A stretch of 64,000 bases of DNA from a virus: IMG/VR virus record IMGVR_UViG_3300025789_000822, positions 24,464 to 88,463 of that record. One strand, given 5' to 3'. The notes beneath the pieces were generated by a model. It was not told the origin of the DNA, did no database searches, and worked only from the letters and a program-made list of their open reading frames with translations. Both the position numbers and the translations under genes were made by a program. Position 1 is the first letter of the stretch. Every line of letters starts with the position of its first letter. Positions 3,335 to 63,488 of this stretch are shown piece after piece.

Positions 3335-3955
3335 TTAAACCATTGCACCAGTCTTTGGTTTAGGTGGCATTTTAATTTTAGTCATGGGACTCATGTCACC
3401 TAATCGTTTATCGTCTAAGTATGGTTTGAATGGGTCAAATGCGTTTGGAGTTTTCTTTCCATCGTATTGATATTCAATATTTGAATCTTTTGCTTGATCC
3501 TTGATACTGTCTAAGTATGAACCAGCATATGCTTTACTTGCAGCCTTTGCGCCTGCTTCTGTTTCTTCTTCATGAGTTAGCACAGGGCTATTTTTCATTT
3601 GATTAGCATATTGTTCTGCTTCGCCATTGATACTGTCATCATATGCAGAACCAATAACTCGTACCATATTCAAGTTGTATCCTAACAACTGTGCCATTTG
3701 TTGAATCATTGGCTCTGTTGCAGGATAACGGAATTTGCACTTAAGAATAGTAATTGATTCATTGTGAAGATCAGGGAATCCATATGGATCCTTCTGAATG
3801 GGCGTGCTTGTTGGCGCTGAGATTTCTACAGGATCAAACTTGTTTAGATTATGTTTGAACATTTCCAACCAGTTTTTATCCACTTCACCAGCGATCTTAA
3901 TAGTGTAATCATATGTATGTACACTTTCAACGATATATTGTTTGAGGCTCTTCAT
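3335..3955 (-). CDS. Conserved T4-like late protein, possible prohead core component
   Basis: 206 residues beginning MKSLKQYIVES, which resembles the T4 capsid-targeting leader (MKTYQEFIAEA of internal proteins II and III). The rest has an alternating beta pattern (YDYTIKIAGEV, ITILKCKFRYPA) and a disordered, Pro/Lys-rich C-terminus. It has its own GATAAATA promoter, whose element overlaps the end of gp16. I remember similar proteins in marine T4-like phages next to head genes, but cannot name the family. A head-core or internal-protein role is inferred from the leader and neighbours. Confidence 0.7.
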   Translation of the reverse strand: MKSLKQYIVESVHTYDYTIKIAGEVDKNWLEMFKHNLNKFDPVEISAPTSTPIQKDPYGFPDLHNESITILKCKFRYPATEPMIQQMAQLLGYNLNMVRVIGSAYDDSINGEAEQYANQMKNSPVLTHEEETEAGAKAASKAYAGSYLDSIKDQAKDSNIEYQYDGKKTPNAFDPFKPYLDDKRLGDMSPMTKIKMPPKPKTGAMV

Positions 3956-22955: not shown

Positions 22956-25900
22956 TTAGAGTCTACCAATTGCCACTTCAATGACACCTTCGCCTTCGTG
23001 GTTCTCTAATGCTTTACCAATGATTGTTCCCATTTGTGGTGTAAGTGTTGGTCTTGCGTAGCCATCGCCACCGCTAATTAGCATATCACCCTTTTTAATG
23101 CTTCCGCGTACCTTAGTTGGTACACGTCCTTGTAGAGCAATAGCAACTGCGATGCCCGAACATGTTGAATTCATAACATAAGCAGGGTTAGTAGACACTA
23201 CGCCGGCAACTCTAGTTGTACCATCTTCTGCAACAGTAACTTCTTTCTCACCGCCAAATTCTAGTACGGTGCCCGGTTCATACTCTTGATCTGCTTCATA
23301 ATACTCAGCCAAGTCAGCATATGTTGCTTGTAGTCTTGAACCTGTAGTCAATGTCCAATTACCGGTGAATGTTGCAGCCGTTGTATTTGATCCTGCATTG
23401 ATAGTAGTTATACCATTCAATGTAGTGATATTGTTTTGTACTGCACCTGTTACGATTGTAGCATTGTTAGCATTTGCAATTGCTGTGTTAGATAATGCAT
23501 AATTAGCTGCCGCAATACCACCTAAGTACAATGAGTTGTTAGCATTAGCAACGGTACCTGTTACATTAGCACCTGTGATTGCTGTTAGTGAACTGCCGGT
23601 ACCGGTCACTAGTAAATAACTTGCTGCTGCTGTACCGCCTAAATAACTTGAGTTATTTGCACTAGCTACTGTTCCTGATACATTAGCACCGGCTACAGCA
23701 TTTGCTGTTGTTGCATATGCTACCGCACCACTTACATTGGCGCCTGCTACTGCATTGGCAGTAGTTGCATAAGCCACTGCACCTGATACATTAGCACCGG
23801 CTACTGAGTTAGCTGTTGTTGCATAAGCAACGGCACCACTTACATTAGCACCTTGAATGTTACTTAAATTATTACCGGCTCCATAATGATTACCTGTTAA
23901 GTTGGCTCCTGATATGTTACCTGTAACTGCAAGTGAAGTTAATGTGCCAACACTTGTAATATTGGGTTGTGCATTTGTATAAACTGTACCTGCTACTAGT
24001 GCGTTACCTACTTGACCTGTGACATTTGCACCAGTAATTGAACTTAATGCACTACCATTGCCACTTACGTTAGCCGCACTAACATTACCGATAACACTTA
24101 AATTAGTAAGTTGACTTAAGTTGCCTGTATCTGACAAATCAAAAATAGTTGTAGTGTAACCACTATTAACAATCTGTAAGTTACCTGAACTGTTTAATCT
24201 GAAATATTTGTGTGGATTAGTTGCGCTGACATTACTATTAGTCATAGTAATCATGCCAGCATAACCCGAGCCACCGTGACCATTGTTATTAGTAATAATA
24301 ACTTCACCGTTTGATGTTACGTTGCCATTTGCAACGAATGCACCACCGTATGTTAATGGGCCTGTGCCTGCACGCCCTAATGATGTAGTATCACCGTTAC
24401 CAAAAATGATATAAGCATTAGCACCAGAACTTTCGATACCTGATACTTGTAATGTGTCTACTACATTAACATCACCAATCCAAGCATCATCACCAACTTT
24501 AAAGTTTGTACCATTACCGTTATTGGTAGCAATAACTATTGAAGCGGTAATTGTACTTGCTACTCCTAAATTAACACCTACGTTTGCATTGCCGGTGATA
24601 TTGATATTTGTAGTTGATAAATTGCCTGTTGCAGCGTTGAATGATAAATTAGCATTTGCATATTCTGCAACATTTCCTGTTGTTGCATTCGCTAACATCA
24701 AATATGAAGTACCACTTGAAGTCGTAGTAATATTAGCAAAGTCTGTTACATTAGCGTGTCCAACATTCAAGTTAGGAACACGTGTAGTTGATGTTACAAT
24801 TAATGGTGCAGTACCTGTTGCAATATTAGAAACAAAATAACTTGCAGAGATTAAATTACTAGCAGCTATATTATTAGAACTAATGTTACCGCCAGTAGCG
24901 CCGCCACTTAAAACTAAACTGCTATTGTTTTGGTCATATGTAAAATTAGCACTACCTGCTAACAAATTATTGTTATTAAATTGAACTGAATTTGCAGCTC
25001 CTTGTGCTCCGTTGCTACCACTGCTACCACCAATTGAAGAAATTGCACGGCCGCCTTGTCCATAAACAGTTGCTGTTAAACCACTTGTAGTTTGTAATGG
25101 TAATATAGGACCTGCTGTACCGTTTGGATATAATGAATTTGAAACAGTAATCGTAGTAGCACTAGGGATACTGTTGATGTAATATGTTGTGTTTGCTGTA
25201 AGACCACTAGTAGATAAACTACCCAAGAACACAACAGGTTGATTTACTTCAAATAATACGTTAGCATTAGCAACTGAGTTACCAATGTTAATTACGTTTG
25301 TTGCTACAGTGGTAGCAGTAACATTATTGCTGTATGAATATGCTGTATAAGTAGAAGTGTTGACAGCATTTGAAAAATCAGAAGTGTTATAAAGAGCAAA
25401 ACTATTTGAAGTTTGTGCCTTTACATAGAAATTACCACCGTTTAATGCATTACCAATACTACCGGCAATATTAGGTGCACCTGTTATAGTGATGACAGAA
25501 CCATTGGTAAAATAGTTATTCTGTGTAGTAGTTACTACTGTTAAGTTTCCGGCGGTAGTATTTCCGTTACCTATCTTGATGTTCTGAATATAGGCAGTGA
25601 TTGATGTTTTGGGTGTCCATGAAAGATTACCCAACCCGTCAGTTTGTAATACATAACCAATAGCGCCGCCTGCAATAGTAACATTACCTAGATCACCTAA
25701 GTTAATATTGCCACCTGCATTACCGCCAGCATTTATCCAGTTAGTACCGTCAAAAGCAAGAACTTGTCCTAACCCAACGTCAACTGGGTTAATATTTAAG
25801 TTACCAACACTGCCATCGATTTGACTAAAACTTATCCCTGAATAAGATGTTAATACTTCGATGTTTTCATTGGGTGTTGTTTTACCAATGAATAGACGTT

Positions 25901-57106: not shown

Positions 57107-58654
57107 TTACCCTAAGACGGCAAAGAAGGGTAATGGGGCAATGATTTCTTGGTGATCTCTAATATGTGATTCTAAATCGCTGTTATAGTCACTTAGTAGT
57201 TGAAAGATTCTAACTACTAACAATGATGACATAACCAAATCGTCTGTGTCGCCGATTTTGGCAGCATAACTTCCCCCACTAGCAACAAACGCTTTTAATT
57301 CACTAATCAATGATCTACTATGTAGTGTCATCTTTTTAGATTCTAGTAGTGTCTTGAATTTAGCACAGGCTGCTAATTTAGGTTTCTGCGATGTAGTGAA
57401 GCCTTTACGCTTTTTACCGGGTTCACTAATAAAGATACCGGGAATGTTACTTTCTCCGTATTCTGCTAATGAGATTAATGCGGCTTCACCGATACTGTTG
57501 TTTTCTACAGAGTAGTAAACATTGTTAGGTTCTTTTGTTATGTCAGTAATATACTTGTTAATTTGCGCTAATAGTTTGATTTGGCTGGGGATGTCTGTTT
57601 TGTTGTGTTTCCATTCACCAATTTGCGTAGTGGTGTTTGCTTCGTAAATTTGAATGGCAGCATTGTCGCCACCGGTACCAAGACTTGGGTCTAACCCTAC
57701 TACATAGATATTCCCTTTAACTGGTTGTTTATACCAACGTACTTGCCCCATACGTGTAATAGGTTCTATGCCTTCTAGCTGAATAAGTGTGTTAGGATTG
57801 ATTAAGGTTTCGTCAGCAATAATGAATTCGCAACCAATTTCTCGATTGAAACGATCTTCACCCAACTGTGCTTTCATTTCAGCAGCCCATTTTTCATCAC
57901 GTCCCGGTTGCTCAGTCCAATATGCACGATATGCTCTGAATCCGTTTATACCTAATTCAGTTTGATTGCCATACTCATCTTCTGTTTTATTAGCACCTTT
58001 CCAAATCAATGCAAACTGGTCTTCATCACTATTTGGTGTACTTGTAATAATCGCCTTACCACCAGTTGATAGTGTTGGTGTAATAGAAGTCCAGAACTCT
58101 TGCGCAATACTAGGTCTAACAAATGCAAACTCATCAAGATACAATAATGTAATAGACATACCACGACCAGTATTTTCAGTAGTTGTCGCACTAACAATAC
58201 GACTACCGTTCTCAAAGTCTAAACTACCTTTGTTGTATGTTGTTACACCAGCTTTAATATGGTCGAGGCAGTTTTCATATGCATAACGAATACGTTGCAT
58301 AATTTCCTGAGCGCCTGTATATTTGTGTGCGGCAATTAGAATAGTACTGTCAGGGACAAACATAGCGTACCACAAAAGATATCCGGCTGCACTTGTTGAC
58401 TTACCTGACTGTCGAGGCATGAGTGAAATACTATAACGATAATTGTGATATGTGTGAATTAACTTCTCTTGGTAGGGCCAAGGATGATACAACATACTAC
58501 CCTTAGTAGGGTGTTGTATGTAAAAGAAGTTATCCATGAAATATAGATAACCTGTTTCTGGATCACAACACTTTACAAAATCATCTAATTCTTTTTGTGT
58601 TGCAAAGTGTGTTTTTGTATAAGGTGTTTTAACTAATGTGGGTGCGTTTGCCAT
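57107..58654 (-). CDS. 17: Terminase large subunit gp17
   Basis: 515 residues. ATPase: Walker A RQSGKS at 81-86, Walker B LYLDEF at 171-176, coupling motif ITSTPNS. RNase H-like nuclease: VVGLDPSLGTGGD with Asp322, SVENNSIGEAALISL and a C-terminal DTDDLVMSSLLV. Packages concatemeric DNA with gp16. A perfect TATAAATA lies 5 nt from the ATG. Confidence 0.96.
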   Translation of the reverse strand: MANAPTLVKTPYTKTHFATQKELDDFVKCCDPETGYLYFMDNFFYIQHPTKGSMLYHPWPYQEKLIHTYHNYRYSISLMPRQSGKSTSAAGYLLWYAMFVPDSTILIAAHKYTGAQEIMQRIRYAYENCLDHIKAGVTTYNKGSLDFENGSRIVSATTTENTGRGMSITLLYLDEFAFVRPSIAQEFWTSITPTLSTGGKAIITSTPNSDEDQFALIWKGANKTEDEYGNQTELGINGFRAYRAYWTEQPGRDEKWAAEMKAQLGEDRFNREIGCEFIIADETLINPNTLIQLEGIEPITRMGQVRWYKQPVKGNIYVVGLDPSLGTGGDNAAIQIYEANTTTQIGEWKHNKTDIPSQIKLLAQINKYITDITKEPNNVYYSVENNSIGEAALISLAEYGESNIPGIFISEPGKKRKGFTTSQKPKLAACAKFKTLLESKKMTLHSRSLISELKAFVASGGSYAAKIGDTDDLVMSSLLVVRIFQLLSDYNSDLESHIRDHQEIIAPLPFFAVLG

Positions 58655-59777: not shown

Positions 59778-60179
59778 TTATTTTCCTGTGCGATAATTTT
59801 TCAATTTTCTGCTAGTAGTTGGACTAACTTTATGGACATCATCAGGCTCAGCACTTTTCTTACTAGGTTTTGCAAGTGTGTGATATTCACCGGGGATAGT
59901 TTTCATCGCTGCCTGAACCATATTATGTTCTTCATCTGTATATGGATGTATGCCATTGAACTTTTCTGTTGGACTAGCAACATCCATATCAACTGGTTTA
60001 GTTGATTTACCATCTGCTATGGCCATAGCCATCCACAAACGATTCATATGATAAACACGATCATATCCACCTGTATCACGTGCAATATAACTGCCTGGGC
60101 CCGGGACTACGCTTTCGTGATCCTTGTGTAAACTTGATCTAGGTGGACCAGCTTCGCTAATAAATTCACTTGCTCTCAT
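59778..60179 (-). CDS. Putative injected internal protein with T4-like capsid-targeting leader
   Basis: 133 residues from the ATG at 60179 (AAGGATC ribosome site; an upstream start is inside the previous gene). The leader MRASEFISEAGP matches the T4 internal-protein targeting sequence MKTYQEFIAEA in its E-F-I-x-E-A core, where gp21 cleaves after Glu. The mature part has YIARDTGGYDRVYHMNRLWM, AMAIADGKS and IHPYTDEEHNMVQAAMKTIP, then a Lys-rich tail. I recall this body widely in phage genomes but not its function. Confidence 0.72.
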   Translation of the reverse strand: MRASEFISEAGPPRSSLHKDHESVVPGPGSYIARDTGGYDRVYHMNRLWMAMAIADGKSTKPVDMDVASPTEKFNGIHPYTDEEHNMVQAAMKTIPGEYHTLAKPSKKSAEPDDVHKVSPTTSRKLKNYRTGK

Positions 60180-60180
60180 T

Positions 60181-60726
60181 TTATGATCCTTGATTTGTTG
60201 CCATGACAATATTACTTTGCGTAGCCATAACTGAATTAGAATATCCGTCTAATGCGATAGCCAATCCTGGAACAACATTACCAAGCCACATTACTTGTGA
60301 GCCGATAAAATGTAATACTGTGTTATTTGAAATAGGATTCGCTAAAATTTGTACGTTTCCCGATGTACCATCAACTGTCATATCAAAACTCGACACACAA
60401 TTTCCAAAAAATGTTGAACCATATGCTGTGAATTTCACATTGCTTGAATCTGCGCTTACTTGAGAATATAATTGAATTGTTTGACTGTCTGAGGTAGATG
60501 TATCTGTAGATTGAATATAGAATTGGCCTTGACTAAAAGTATTTGCAGGAGATTCAAAGATGATTTGTCCTGCTGTGTTTCCTGTAGTCAATACGTTGCT
60601 GAAATTGGTAAAACTAGCAAAAAGATTAGTGAAGTTGTCATTAATCTTGTTGAACGCCGTGCGTAACGGGTCACCTTGCCCGTCATTTGGGCTAGTGCCT
60701 ATATTAATAATTTCTTGTATAGCCAT
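60181..60726 (-). CDS. Late virion protein, tail/fibre-type
   Basis: 181 residues. N-terminus IQEIINIGTSPNDGQGDPLR then TAFNKINDNFTNLFASF shares the domain seen at 1-156. The remaining residues form a beta-rich Ser/Thr/Asn domain (GQFYIQSTDTSTSDSQTIQL, FTAYGSTFFGNCVSSFDM). AGGAAG ribosome site and GATAAATA promoter. Probably a short fibre or baseplate-associated component. Confidence 0.75.
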   Translation of the reverse strand: MAIQEIINIGTSPNDGQGDPLRTAFNKINDNFTNLFASFTNFSNVLTTGNTAGQIIFESPANTFSQGQFYIQSTDTSTSDSQTIQLYSQVSADSSNVKFTAYGSTFFGNCVSSFDMTVDGTSGNVQILANPISNNTVLHFIGSQVMWLGNVVPGLAIALDGYSNSVMATQSNIVMATNQGS

Positions 60727-60744
60727 GATAATCTTCCTATCATG

Positions 60745-60752
60745 TATTTATC
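60745..60752 (-). promoter_or_regulatory. Late promoter (GATAAATA)
   Basis: Late element 18 nt from the ATG at 60726. Confidence 0.7.
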
Positions 60753-61504: not shown

Positions 61505-62566
61505 TTATTTAGCAAAAAATTCTAAAACACTTTGTACAATGTATTCAATTTCTCCATCTGTTAGTTCGGGGTAAATAGGCAGACTTAGTACTCCCCTAGT
61601 TAAGAACACACTGGTCGCTAACATAGTTGGTTTAATATATGGCTTAGCAATAGGTAGTTCGCTTAGTGCACGTTCATAGTGAATTTTAGTTTCAATGCCC
61701 TTATTTGTTAAGTATTGTTTTAGTTGATCTCGTTGCTTTGTATATACTACAAACTTTTGATCAGCATGAGTTCTAAATCCTGCGCTTAAACATTTCATTG
61801 GTGCATTTTTAAATTGATCACAGTAATATAAGCGTGTGACTTCTCTACGTTTTTGCCAAGCACTAATATATTGTGCACGTACTAACAAGTGAGCGGCATC
61901 TTGTTCGCTTAATTTACTATTAGTGCCTACATATTCATTGTACCCTTTGTCATTGTCTCTATAACGTTTTGCATATTCATACAATTCTTCGTTGTTAGTT
62001 ACAATAGCACCACCGTTGCCACTTGCATTTAAGTTCTTTGTAGGGTCAAAACTGATTGCCATGCCCTCACCAAAGTTGCCATCAGCGACTAGCCAGTGTT
62101 GTGCCCCGTCAACAATTACATCAGAGGGAATATCATATGTTTGTGGTGCACCATATAGTCCTACAAAACATTTATAGGTTAAACTATCTGTGTTTGATAC
62201 ATTGATTAAGCCATTGCTATCGGTATCACATAGTTCAATATCCCAACCTGTGTTGATGAATGCGTTTAATGTGGCAGGATATGTAACATTGGGGATATAA
62301 ACTTTAGGTTTGATATTAAAGTCAAAAGGATTGTTTGCTAGATAATGAAATCTAGCAATCATTTCTAAAGCCTGTGTTCCGCTATGTACAGTTAGTGCGT
62401 ATTGCGCGCCTGTGTAATCTTTAAGCCACTGTTCAAACTTATTAGTATAAGGTCCGCCGACCAAACACCCACTTCTGAGTACTTGATCGGTGGCAAATAA
62501 TAATTCTGCTTTTAAGTTACTGTATTGTCTTTGCAGACCAAAATGGGGAATTTGTAAGCCACTCAT
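61505..62566 (-). CDS. DegT/DnrJ/EryC1-type nucleotide-sugar aminotransferase
   Basis: 353 residues. PLP-binding landmarks: HSGTQALEMI near 61-70, DGAQHW at 153-158, and the Schiff-base Lys177 in SFDPTKNLNASGNGGAIVT. The C-terminal KIHYERALSELP and LSLPIYPELTDGEIEYIV are family hallmarks. It transfers an amino group to a keto sugar-nucleotide. Its start lies 50 bp inside the epimerase gene, so both are made together. Confidence 0.9.
   Translation of the reverse strand: MSGLQIPHFGLQRQYSNLKAELLFATDQVLRSGCLVGGPYTNKFEQWLKDYTGAQYALTVHSGTQALEMIARFHYLANNPFDFNIKPKVYIPNVTYPATLNAFINTGWDIELCDTDSNGLINVSNTDSLTYKCFVGLYGAPQTYDIPSDVIVDGAQHWLVADGNFGEGMAISFDPTKNLNASGNGGAIVTNNEELYEYAKRYRDNDKGYNEYVGTNSKLSEQDAAHLLVRAQYISAWQKRREVTRLYYCDQFKNAPMKCLSAGFRTHADQKFVVYTKQRDQLKQYLTNKGIETKIHYERALSELPIAKPYIKPTMLATSVFLTRGVLSLPIYPELTDGEIEYIVQSVLEFFAK
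61506..61513 (-). promoter_or_regulatory. Late promoter (GCTAAATA) for the spanins
   Basis: Late-type element 8 nt before the ATG at 61497, embedded in the last codons of the aminotransferase gene. Would give late, near-leaderless lysis mRNA. Confidence 0.45.
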
Positions 62567-63488
62567 AATATTTTTCGAACCCTTCTTCTACATCGACCTT
62601 CGGATCAAACTGAAAATCTTTTCTTGCATTATCAATATTTAATGCACCGCGGCTTGGGAAATCTGCGTCTTTACCGCGCACTTCGATATTACCCTTGCCT
62701 ACAATCTTTACTGCTAATTCGGCAGCATCAATTAGAGTTCTACTGTGGCTTTTTGTGATGTTGTATGTTTTGTTTGTTGCATATGGACTAAGTGAGGCTG
62801 CGACAATTCCGTCTGCCGCATCGTCCACATAAGTGAAGTCGAGGGTTTCACCGGCTCCGTTGACCTTGAGGGTTCCTCCTCGCATGGCTGTAAGCATAAA
62901 CTTTGCAATAACTCTATCTTCCACGTCAAGCGGGCCGTATACAGCACTAGGACGCACAATAGTATAGTTAAAACAACCTCGGCGCGTGTAATCTTTGACA
63001 ACATGTTCTCCTGCTAATTTCATAATGCCATATTGGCCTTGTGGTTTACAAATGGCATCTTCTGTAACATCATCAGTAAAGTCTCCATAGACCATACTTG
63101 AACTAATATACATAAATCTATCTACTGAATATTTCTTGCTCAATTCACATAGATTCATTAAACCTTCCATCATTGTTCTTGCACCAATCATGGGATTAGC
63201 ATTGACAACTTTTTGACGGGGGAAACTTGCCATATGAATCACTACTTCAGGCTTATATTTGTCAAATAACCAATTCATTCCTTCAACATCACTGATATCG
63301 ATTCTATGAATTGCAGTAGTACTAATTTTCTTTAATCGTTCTGCCACAAGGTAATCAAGTTCGTCTTGCGGAACCAATCCATAATTAGTTCGGGTATCTG
63401 TAATAGAAACTTCATGTCCTAAGTTTTCTAAACGTGCTACTACATTGTGACCTATCAAACCGAGGCCGCCGGTTACTAAAATTCTCAT
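62517..63488 (-). CDS. NAD-dependent nucleotide-sugar epimerase/dehydratase
   Basis: 323 residues. An extended SDR enzyme: TGGLGLIG (residues 6-13) binds NAD, ISSSMVYGD holds the catalytic Ser, Y153-x3-K157 (YGIMK) the active pair, and RPSAVYGP the substrate end. Acts on UDP/GDP/dTDP-sugars. With the aminotransferase it may build an amino sugar for virion, DNA or host-surface decoration. Confidence 0.88.
   Translation of the reverse strand: MRILVTGGLGLIGHNVVARLENLGHEVSITDTRTNYGLVPQDELDYLVAERLKKISTTAIHRIDISDVEGMNWLFDKYKPEVVIHMASFPRQKVVNANPMIGARTMMEGLMNLCELSKKYSVDRFMYISSSMVYGDFTDDVTEDAICKPQGQYGIMKLAGEHVVKDYTRRGCFNYTIVRPSAVYGPLDVEDRVIAKFMLTAMRGGTLKVNGAGETLDFTYVDDAADGIVAASLSPYATNKTYNITKSHSRTLIDAAELAVKIVGKGNIEVRGKDADFPSRGALNIDNARKDFQFDPKVDVEEGFEKYYEWLTNSPFWSAKTIQ

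Follow-up and report, generated by a model that had tools for sequence, protein, structure and literature searches.

What does a small, basic protein do in a T4-like phage when its first residues recall the capsid-targeting sequence (CTS) of the T4 internal proteins? The question is raised by a 133-residue ORF in the window, i.e., the whole 64,000-nucleotide stretch analysed here, which corresponds to positions 24464 to 88463 of a virus record 88,463 bp long. The record, a fragment from an uncultured T4-like phage, carries tail, replication and packaging genes and lacks head genes; no major capsid gene was seen on reading its ORFs, and a search for the S77 protease across the 88 kb found none. 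We consider it likely that the product of the ORF travels in a T4-type head as an internal-protein-like passenger, being loaded, cut after Glu9 and most likely injected. In the proposed mechanism the leader MRASEFISE would attach to the core of the prohead and bring the protein inside, a gp21-type S77 protease would cut after Glu9, the basic 124-residue mature protein would stay inside the DNA-filled head and, by analogy with the T4 internal proteins, would most likely enter the next host with the DNA. The locus has the following features (here and below a slash marks a predicted cut):

59778..60179, minus strand: ORF of 133 aa, predicted capsid-internal (IP-like) protein; homologues share its start methionine
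60153..60179, minus strand: capsid-targeting-like leader MRASEFISE, residues 1-9; predicted cut between 60153 and 60152 (ISE/A)
59781..60152, minus strand: predicted mature chain, residues 10-133, 13.7 kDa, pI 9.1; superfamily profile match
60187..60191, minus strand: Shine-Dalgarno sequence AAGGA, 7 nt 5' of the ATG, within the end of the upstream gene
60181..60726, minus strand: upstream gene, gp9/10-like tail/baseplate protein (PHROG 677, E 7e-10)
60745..60751, minus strand: late-promoter-like ATAAATA 5' of the two-gene unit of gp9/10-like gene and leader gene; weak evidence
57107..58654, minus strand: large terminase (gp17-like), third gene downstream; several relatives have a similar neighbourhood

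The first-pass annotation had proposed a protein of 133 residues, and the ORF at 59778-60179 on the minus strand was confirmed by its Shine-Dalgarno sequence and by homologues that use the same start methionine; a longer version with a TTG start, which overlaps the upstream gene and is without homologue support, was rejected. The ATG of the leader gene lies one base past the stop of the gp9/10-like gene, a neighbour that provides a late structural context, and downstream follow a methyltransferase, a small protein and then the large terminase. The late-promoter motif is enriched in front of genes with a T4-style MKT leader (83/121 versus 473/2,518 control genes) and not in front of the MRA-leader set (21/118, same control), and because of this missing enrichment it was left out of the evidence.

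The same annotation had also stated that the E-F-I-x-E-A core of the T4 IPII/IPIII leader is kept, and this holds when the N-terminus, MRASEFISE/AG, is set beside T4 IPII and IPIII, which both begin MKTYQEFIAEA (read from AF158101) and share the EFI-x-EA core, with internal methionines and a permuted pattern as controls. A leader-like start was found in 67 of 68 unique family members, the single exception (L060) being a fusion that itself begins in a leader-like way (MNLRELFEVN). The cleavage rule of gp21 is L/I-x-E (PMC9026906). Consistent with this rule, the P1 residue is Glu in all 60 unfused unique homologues of the alignment, P3 is Ile or Leu in 57/60 and Met or Val in the remaining three, and P1' is mostly small (Gly, Ala or Ser in 49/60; Asn, Thr, Asp, Gln or His in 11/60). 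The leader was placed with a regular expression that is biased towards this pattern; the conservation of the alignment columns M1 (100%), E5 (97%) and E9 (100%) does not depend on that expression alone. Alignment entropy is low in residues 1-10, rises to high values over residues 11-28 and drops back in the body, a profile that reads as a leader followed by a variable linker and then a domain. That an ordinary protein merely resembles the leader at its start by chance, for which the shortness of the motif speaks, is a reading with negligible probability: the strict motif stands at 16/1,361 gene starts versus 2/6,401 internal methionines in seven records, a degenerate DNA pattern for MRAxEFIxEA gave at least 120 matches in IMG/VR and a permuted pattern of identical residue content and degeneracy gave 0, and the Glu is conserved in 60/60 homologues. 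Judged by these counts, the leader motif exceeds chance.

The comparison of homologues suggested at the outset, which looks for bodies that vary while the leader stays fixed, gave a positive result; many bodies stand behind one leader, and one body stands behind two different leaders. Among the matches listed from IMG/VR, the MRAxEFIxEA leader precedes at least 25 BLAST clusters of bodies and the T4-style leader MKT[YF]xE[FY]xAEA at least 34, and the latter set takes in genuine relatives of T4 IPIII and IPII. The passengers named by Pfam are the anti-CBASS protein Acb1 (E 3e-23), an ART-PolyVal ADP-ribosyltransferase (E 2e-28) and an FMN reductase, with weaker matches to GNAT and, at the borderline, to an SLT transglycosylase. 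Moreover, the body of the focal protein itself stands behind the near-T4 leader MKTFLEYLAEA in four loci (L066, L334, L374 and L076). Leader genes lie side by side in 124 adjacent pairs versus 44 expected, an excess that is merely indicative because the loci were chosen by their leader. By these sequence comparisons, the leader is a tag that is separate from the body. They also bear on the idea that the motif is a short amphipathic helix for docking to another structure, such as the tail or the baseplate, with an EFI-x-E likeness to T4 that is convergent. The gp9/10-like nature of the upstream gene would fit such a helix, whereas the occurrence of the motif on dozens of unrelated bodies including enzymes, the presence of its T4-type form on true T4 internal proteins, the invariant P1 Glu and the swap of the same body to a T4-type leader all argue against it, and we regard it as very improbable.

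If the leader is a head-loading tag, the machinery for it should be sought in relatives with a more complete record. Of 28 leader-bearing records, 12 contain both full-length gp23 and a gp21-type S77 protease, and none contains just one of the two; the other 16 have neither, some of them being longer than 100 kb, and may represent fragments from which the head module is missing. The two closest relatives by terminase (G001 and G003, 84% identity) each contain an S77 protease and gp23, and their gp23 shows LLxE/S at a plausible end of the propeptide, matching the cut site of the leader. The 364-kb record of G001 (L093, L094) has, besides the full gp23, two extra short partial gp23 matches in frames of 139 and 124 aa. 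Packaging and clipping are well supported by inference because the P1 residue is invariant, P3 is hydrophobic, leaders are swapped, leader genes occur in tandem, and gp23 and the S77 protease are found wherever the head module of relatives is present. The earlier claim that the protein is sent into the prohead and trimmed there by the protease thus stands as a prediction with strong comparative evidence, which comprises leader conservation, portability and the co-occurrence of gp23 and S77.

A second protein of the window touches on the same question:

3335..3955, minus strand: second, weaker leader-like N-terminus, MKSLKQYIVE/S; weak match to PHROG 14802 'virion structural protein' (E 0.0018)

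The PHROG 14802 member of PA5oct (EST35_0202), to which this protein is related and whose body is unrelated to the focal protein, is a structural protein detected by ESI-MS/MS, the members of CBB and PHA46 are located near a head-completion gene, and in L331 a PHROG 14802 member is preceded by MKTFKEYLAEA. The isolates of PHROG 14802 were considered as a direct demonstration that a virion protein bears a leader, and were rejected as such; as their N-termini are without a clean leader, this family lends weak support only.

What the leader would carry at our locus is a body of a basic superfamily. The family has 107 confirmed candidates in IMG/VR and joins a wider superfamily by a profile match with E 3e-43, a figure that includes the shared leader; the superfamily occurs in over 100 phage contigs, often as tandem groups of at least two in one genome. 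It is without a match in Pfam, PHROGs and isolate phage records, yet common in environmental phage contigs. Sequence searches of Pfam, PHROGs and the PDB yielded no credible family for the body, a single PDB row with E 0.07 being taken as noise, and no relatives of it were found in the INPHARED isolate phages or among 84,980 species genomes of bacteria and archaea (GTDB). Two AlphaFold predictions reached mean pLDDT values of 62 and 73, and Foldseek retrieved no PDB fold for the body. The only solid viral match of Foldseek (E 4.6e-6) is to a phage protein with the annotation cytidyltransferase-like, in accord with fusions of the focal domain to a nucleotidyltransferase-like protein. In L060, L065, L070, L072, L073, L075, L079 and L081 the domain forms the C-terminal part of a longer protein, and several of the longer partners are nucleotidyltransferase-like by a GRFNPxHxGH-type motif noted on reading. 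Most of these fusion proteins open with a leader-like N-terminus of their own; the internal leader and its Met are kept in L065, L072, L075, L079 and L081 and lost in L060, and where kept they possibly serve as an internal start or for internal cleavage.

These properties of the body have to be weighed against a reading in which the protein is packaged and clipped and serves the head itself, as a core or structural component comparable to T4 gp67/gp68 or to IPIII in its assembly role; it would then help to assemble the head or condense the DNA and would have no task after injection. In its favour are a conserved body with 20 invariant alignment columns, a basic character (mature pI 9.1, and a pI above 7.5 in 43/60 homologues), a family as widespread as its 107 candidates indicate and the late structural neighbourhood near TerL. 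The body was called conserved after comparison of its divergence with that of TerL and the tail genes, and it is more conserved than expected of a typical anti-defence gene. In G001 and G003, however, it retains 51-56% identity versus 84% for TerL and 68-76% for the tail tube; its divergence outpaces that of these two and lags behind that of the spanin gene. Furthermore, the gene shifts its position, adjoining paralogues come and go, and in some phages the domain is fused to an enzyme-like protein, all of which speak against a purely structural task. We therefore consider this reading unlikely and continue with the internal-protein-like passenger.

How close this passenger comes to known systems can be judged at several levels. 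It shares with T4 IPI, IPII and IPIII and their CTS a short N-terminal leader with EFI-x-E/A and a small basic body, as well as variable bodies behind a fixed leader and neighbouring genes, and genomes of relatives encode gp23 and a gp21-type protease. The differences are that the T4 CTS comprises 10 residues and begins MKTYQ while the focal leader has nine and begins MRAx, that no similarity to T4 internal proteins was detected in the body, and that the focal family has homologous paralogues, often in tandem, and in some phages a nucleotidyltransferase-like fusion. Targeting by the T4 leader depends mainly on residues 4 and 7, Tyr4 and Phe7 (PMC9026906). Aligned from the cut, Phe7 is kept in the focal leader as F6 and Tyr4 is replaced by Ala; the MKTFLEYLAEA homologues retain an aromatic residue at position 4. 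Because Tyr4 is not matched, the protein is filed as IP-like and membership of the strict T4 IP class is not claimed. The simplest reading of a leader without Tyr4 is co-evolution with a different scaffold, and the resemblance to T4 internal proteins in action is strong. The ejection proteins of the giant phages SPN3US and phiKZ are likewise head proteins with N-terminal propeptides removed by a prohead protease (PMC5694885), but several of these propeptides exceed 100 residues and their cleavage motif is AxE or SxE.

The T4 internal proteins are well-proven cases of delivery with phage DNA, and injection of the focal protein would follow solely by analogy with them. T4 injects Ip1, Ip2 and Ip3, each of them an inhibitor of a different GmrSD (type IV) restriction enzyme (PMC12373910). 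For the role of the focal body, we hold anti-defence as a tentative possibility, deem a head- or DNA-associated function somewhat less probable and assign the rest of our estimate to another early host interaction. Acb1 is encoded behind the T4-type leader MKTFREYLAE/AEQ with a good Shine-Dalgarno sequence (L275:2104-2571, plus strand), and an Acb1-like protein of the isolate Vibrio phage pv27 (L395:392-916) begins MKPKSFREHLNQTSTDFITE/AP and resembles the long T4 IPI leader; the N-terminus of T4's own Acb1 (57B) was checked and shows no such leader. This arrangement suggests that leader-borne Acb1 might be a virion-delivered, pre-loaded anti-CBASS enzyme. More broadly, we are evenly divided on whether T4-like phages from the environment share a general tag for head loading (MRAxEFIxE or MKTxxEFIAE) that marks a large and exchangeable repertoire of delivered proteins, a repertoire that would comprise at least dozens of unrelated families including the focal diversifying superfamily, ADP-ribosyltransferases and Acb1. 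If true, counter-defence would already be present as the DNA enters, and the recognisable tag of 9-10 residues would allow a sequence search to list candidate delivered effectors in uncultured phages.

Two further observations were made alongside. In the window, aminotransferase-like and nucleotide-sugar epimerase-like genes at 61505-63488 on the minus strand, identified by reading, adjoin a spanin-like pair and possibly serve glycan tailoring. In other records (L154:2992-3612; L168:6261-6890, minus strand; L214:708-1337, minus strand; L036:14411-14752), a leader-like start is followed directly by a twin-arginine motif (DRRGFLGALGAGA), and it would be odd for a Tat-exported enzyme to bear a head-targeting tag; three of these proteins read like GH19-type lysozymes.
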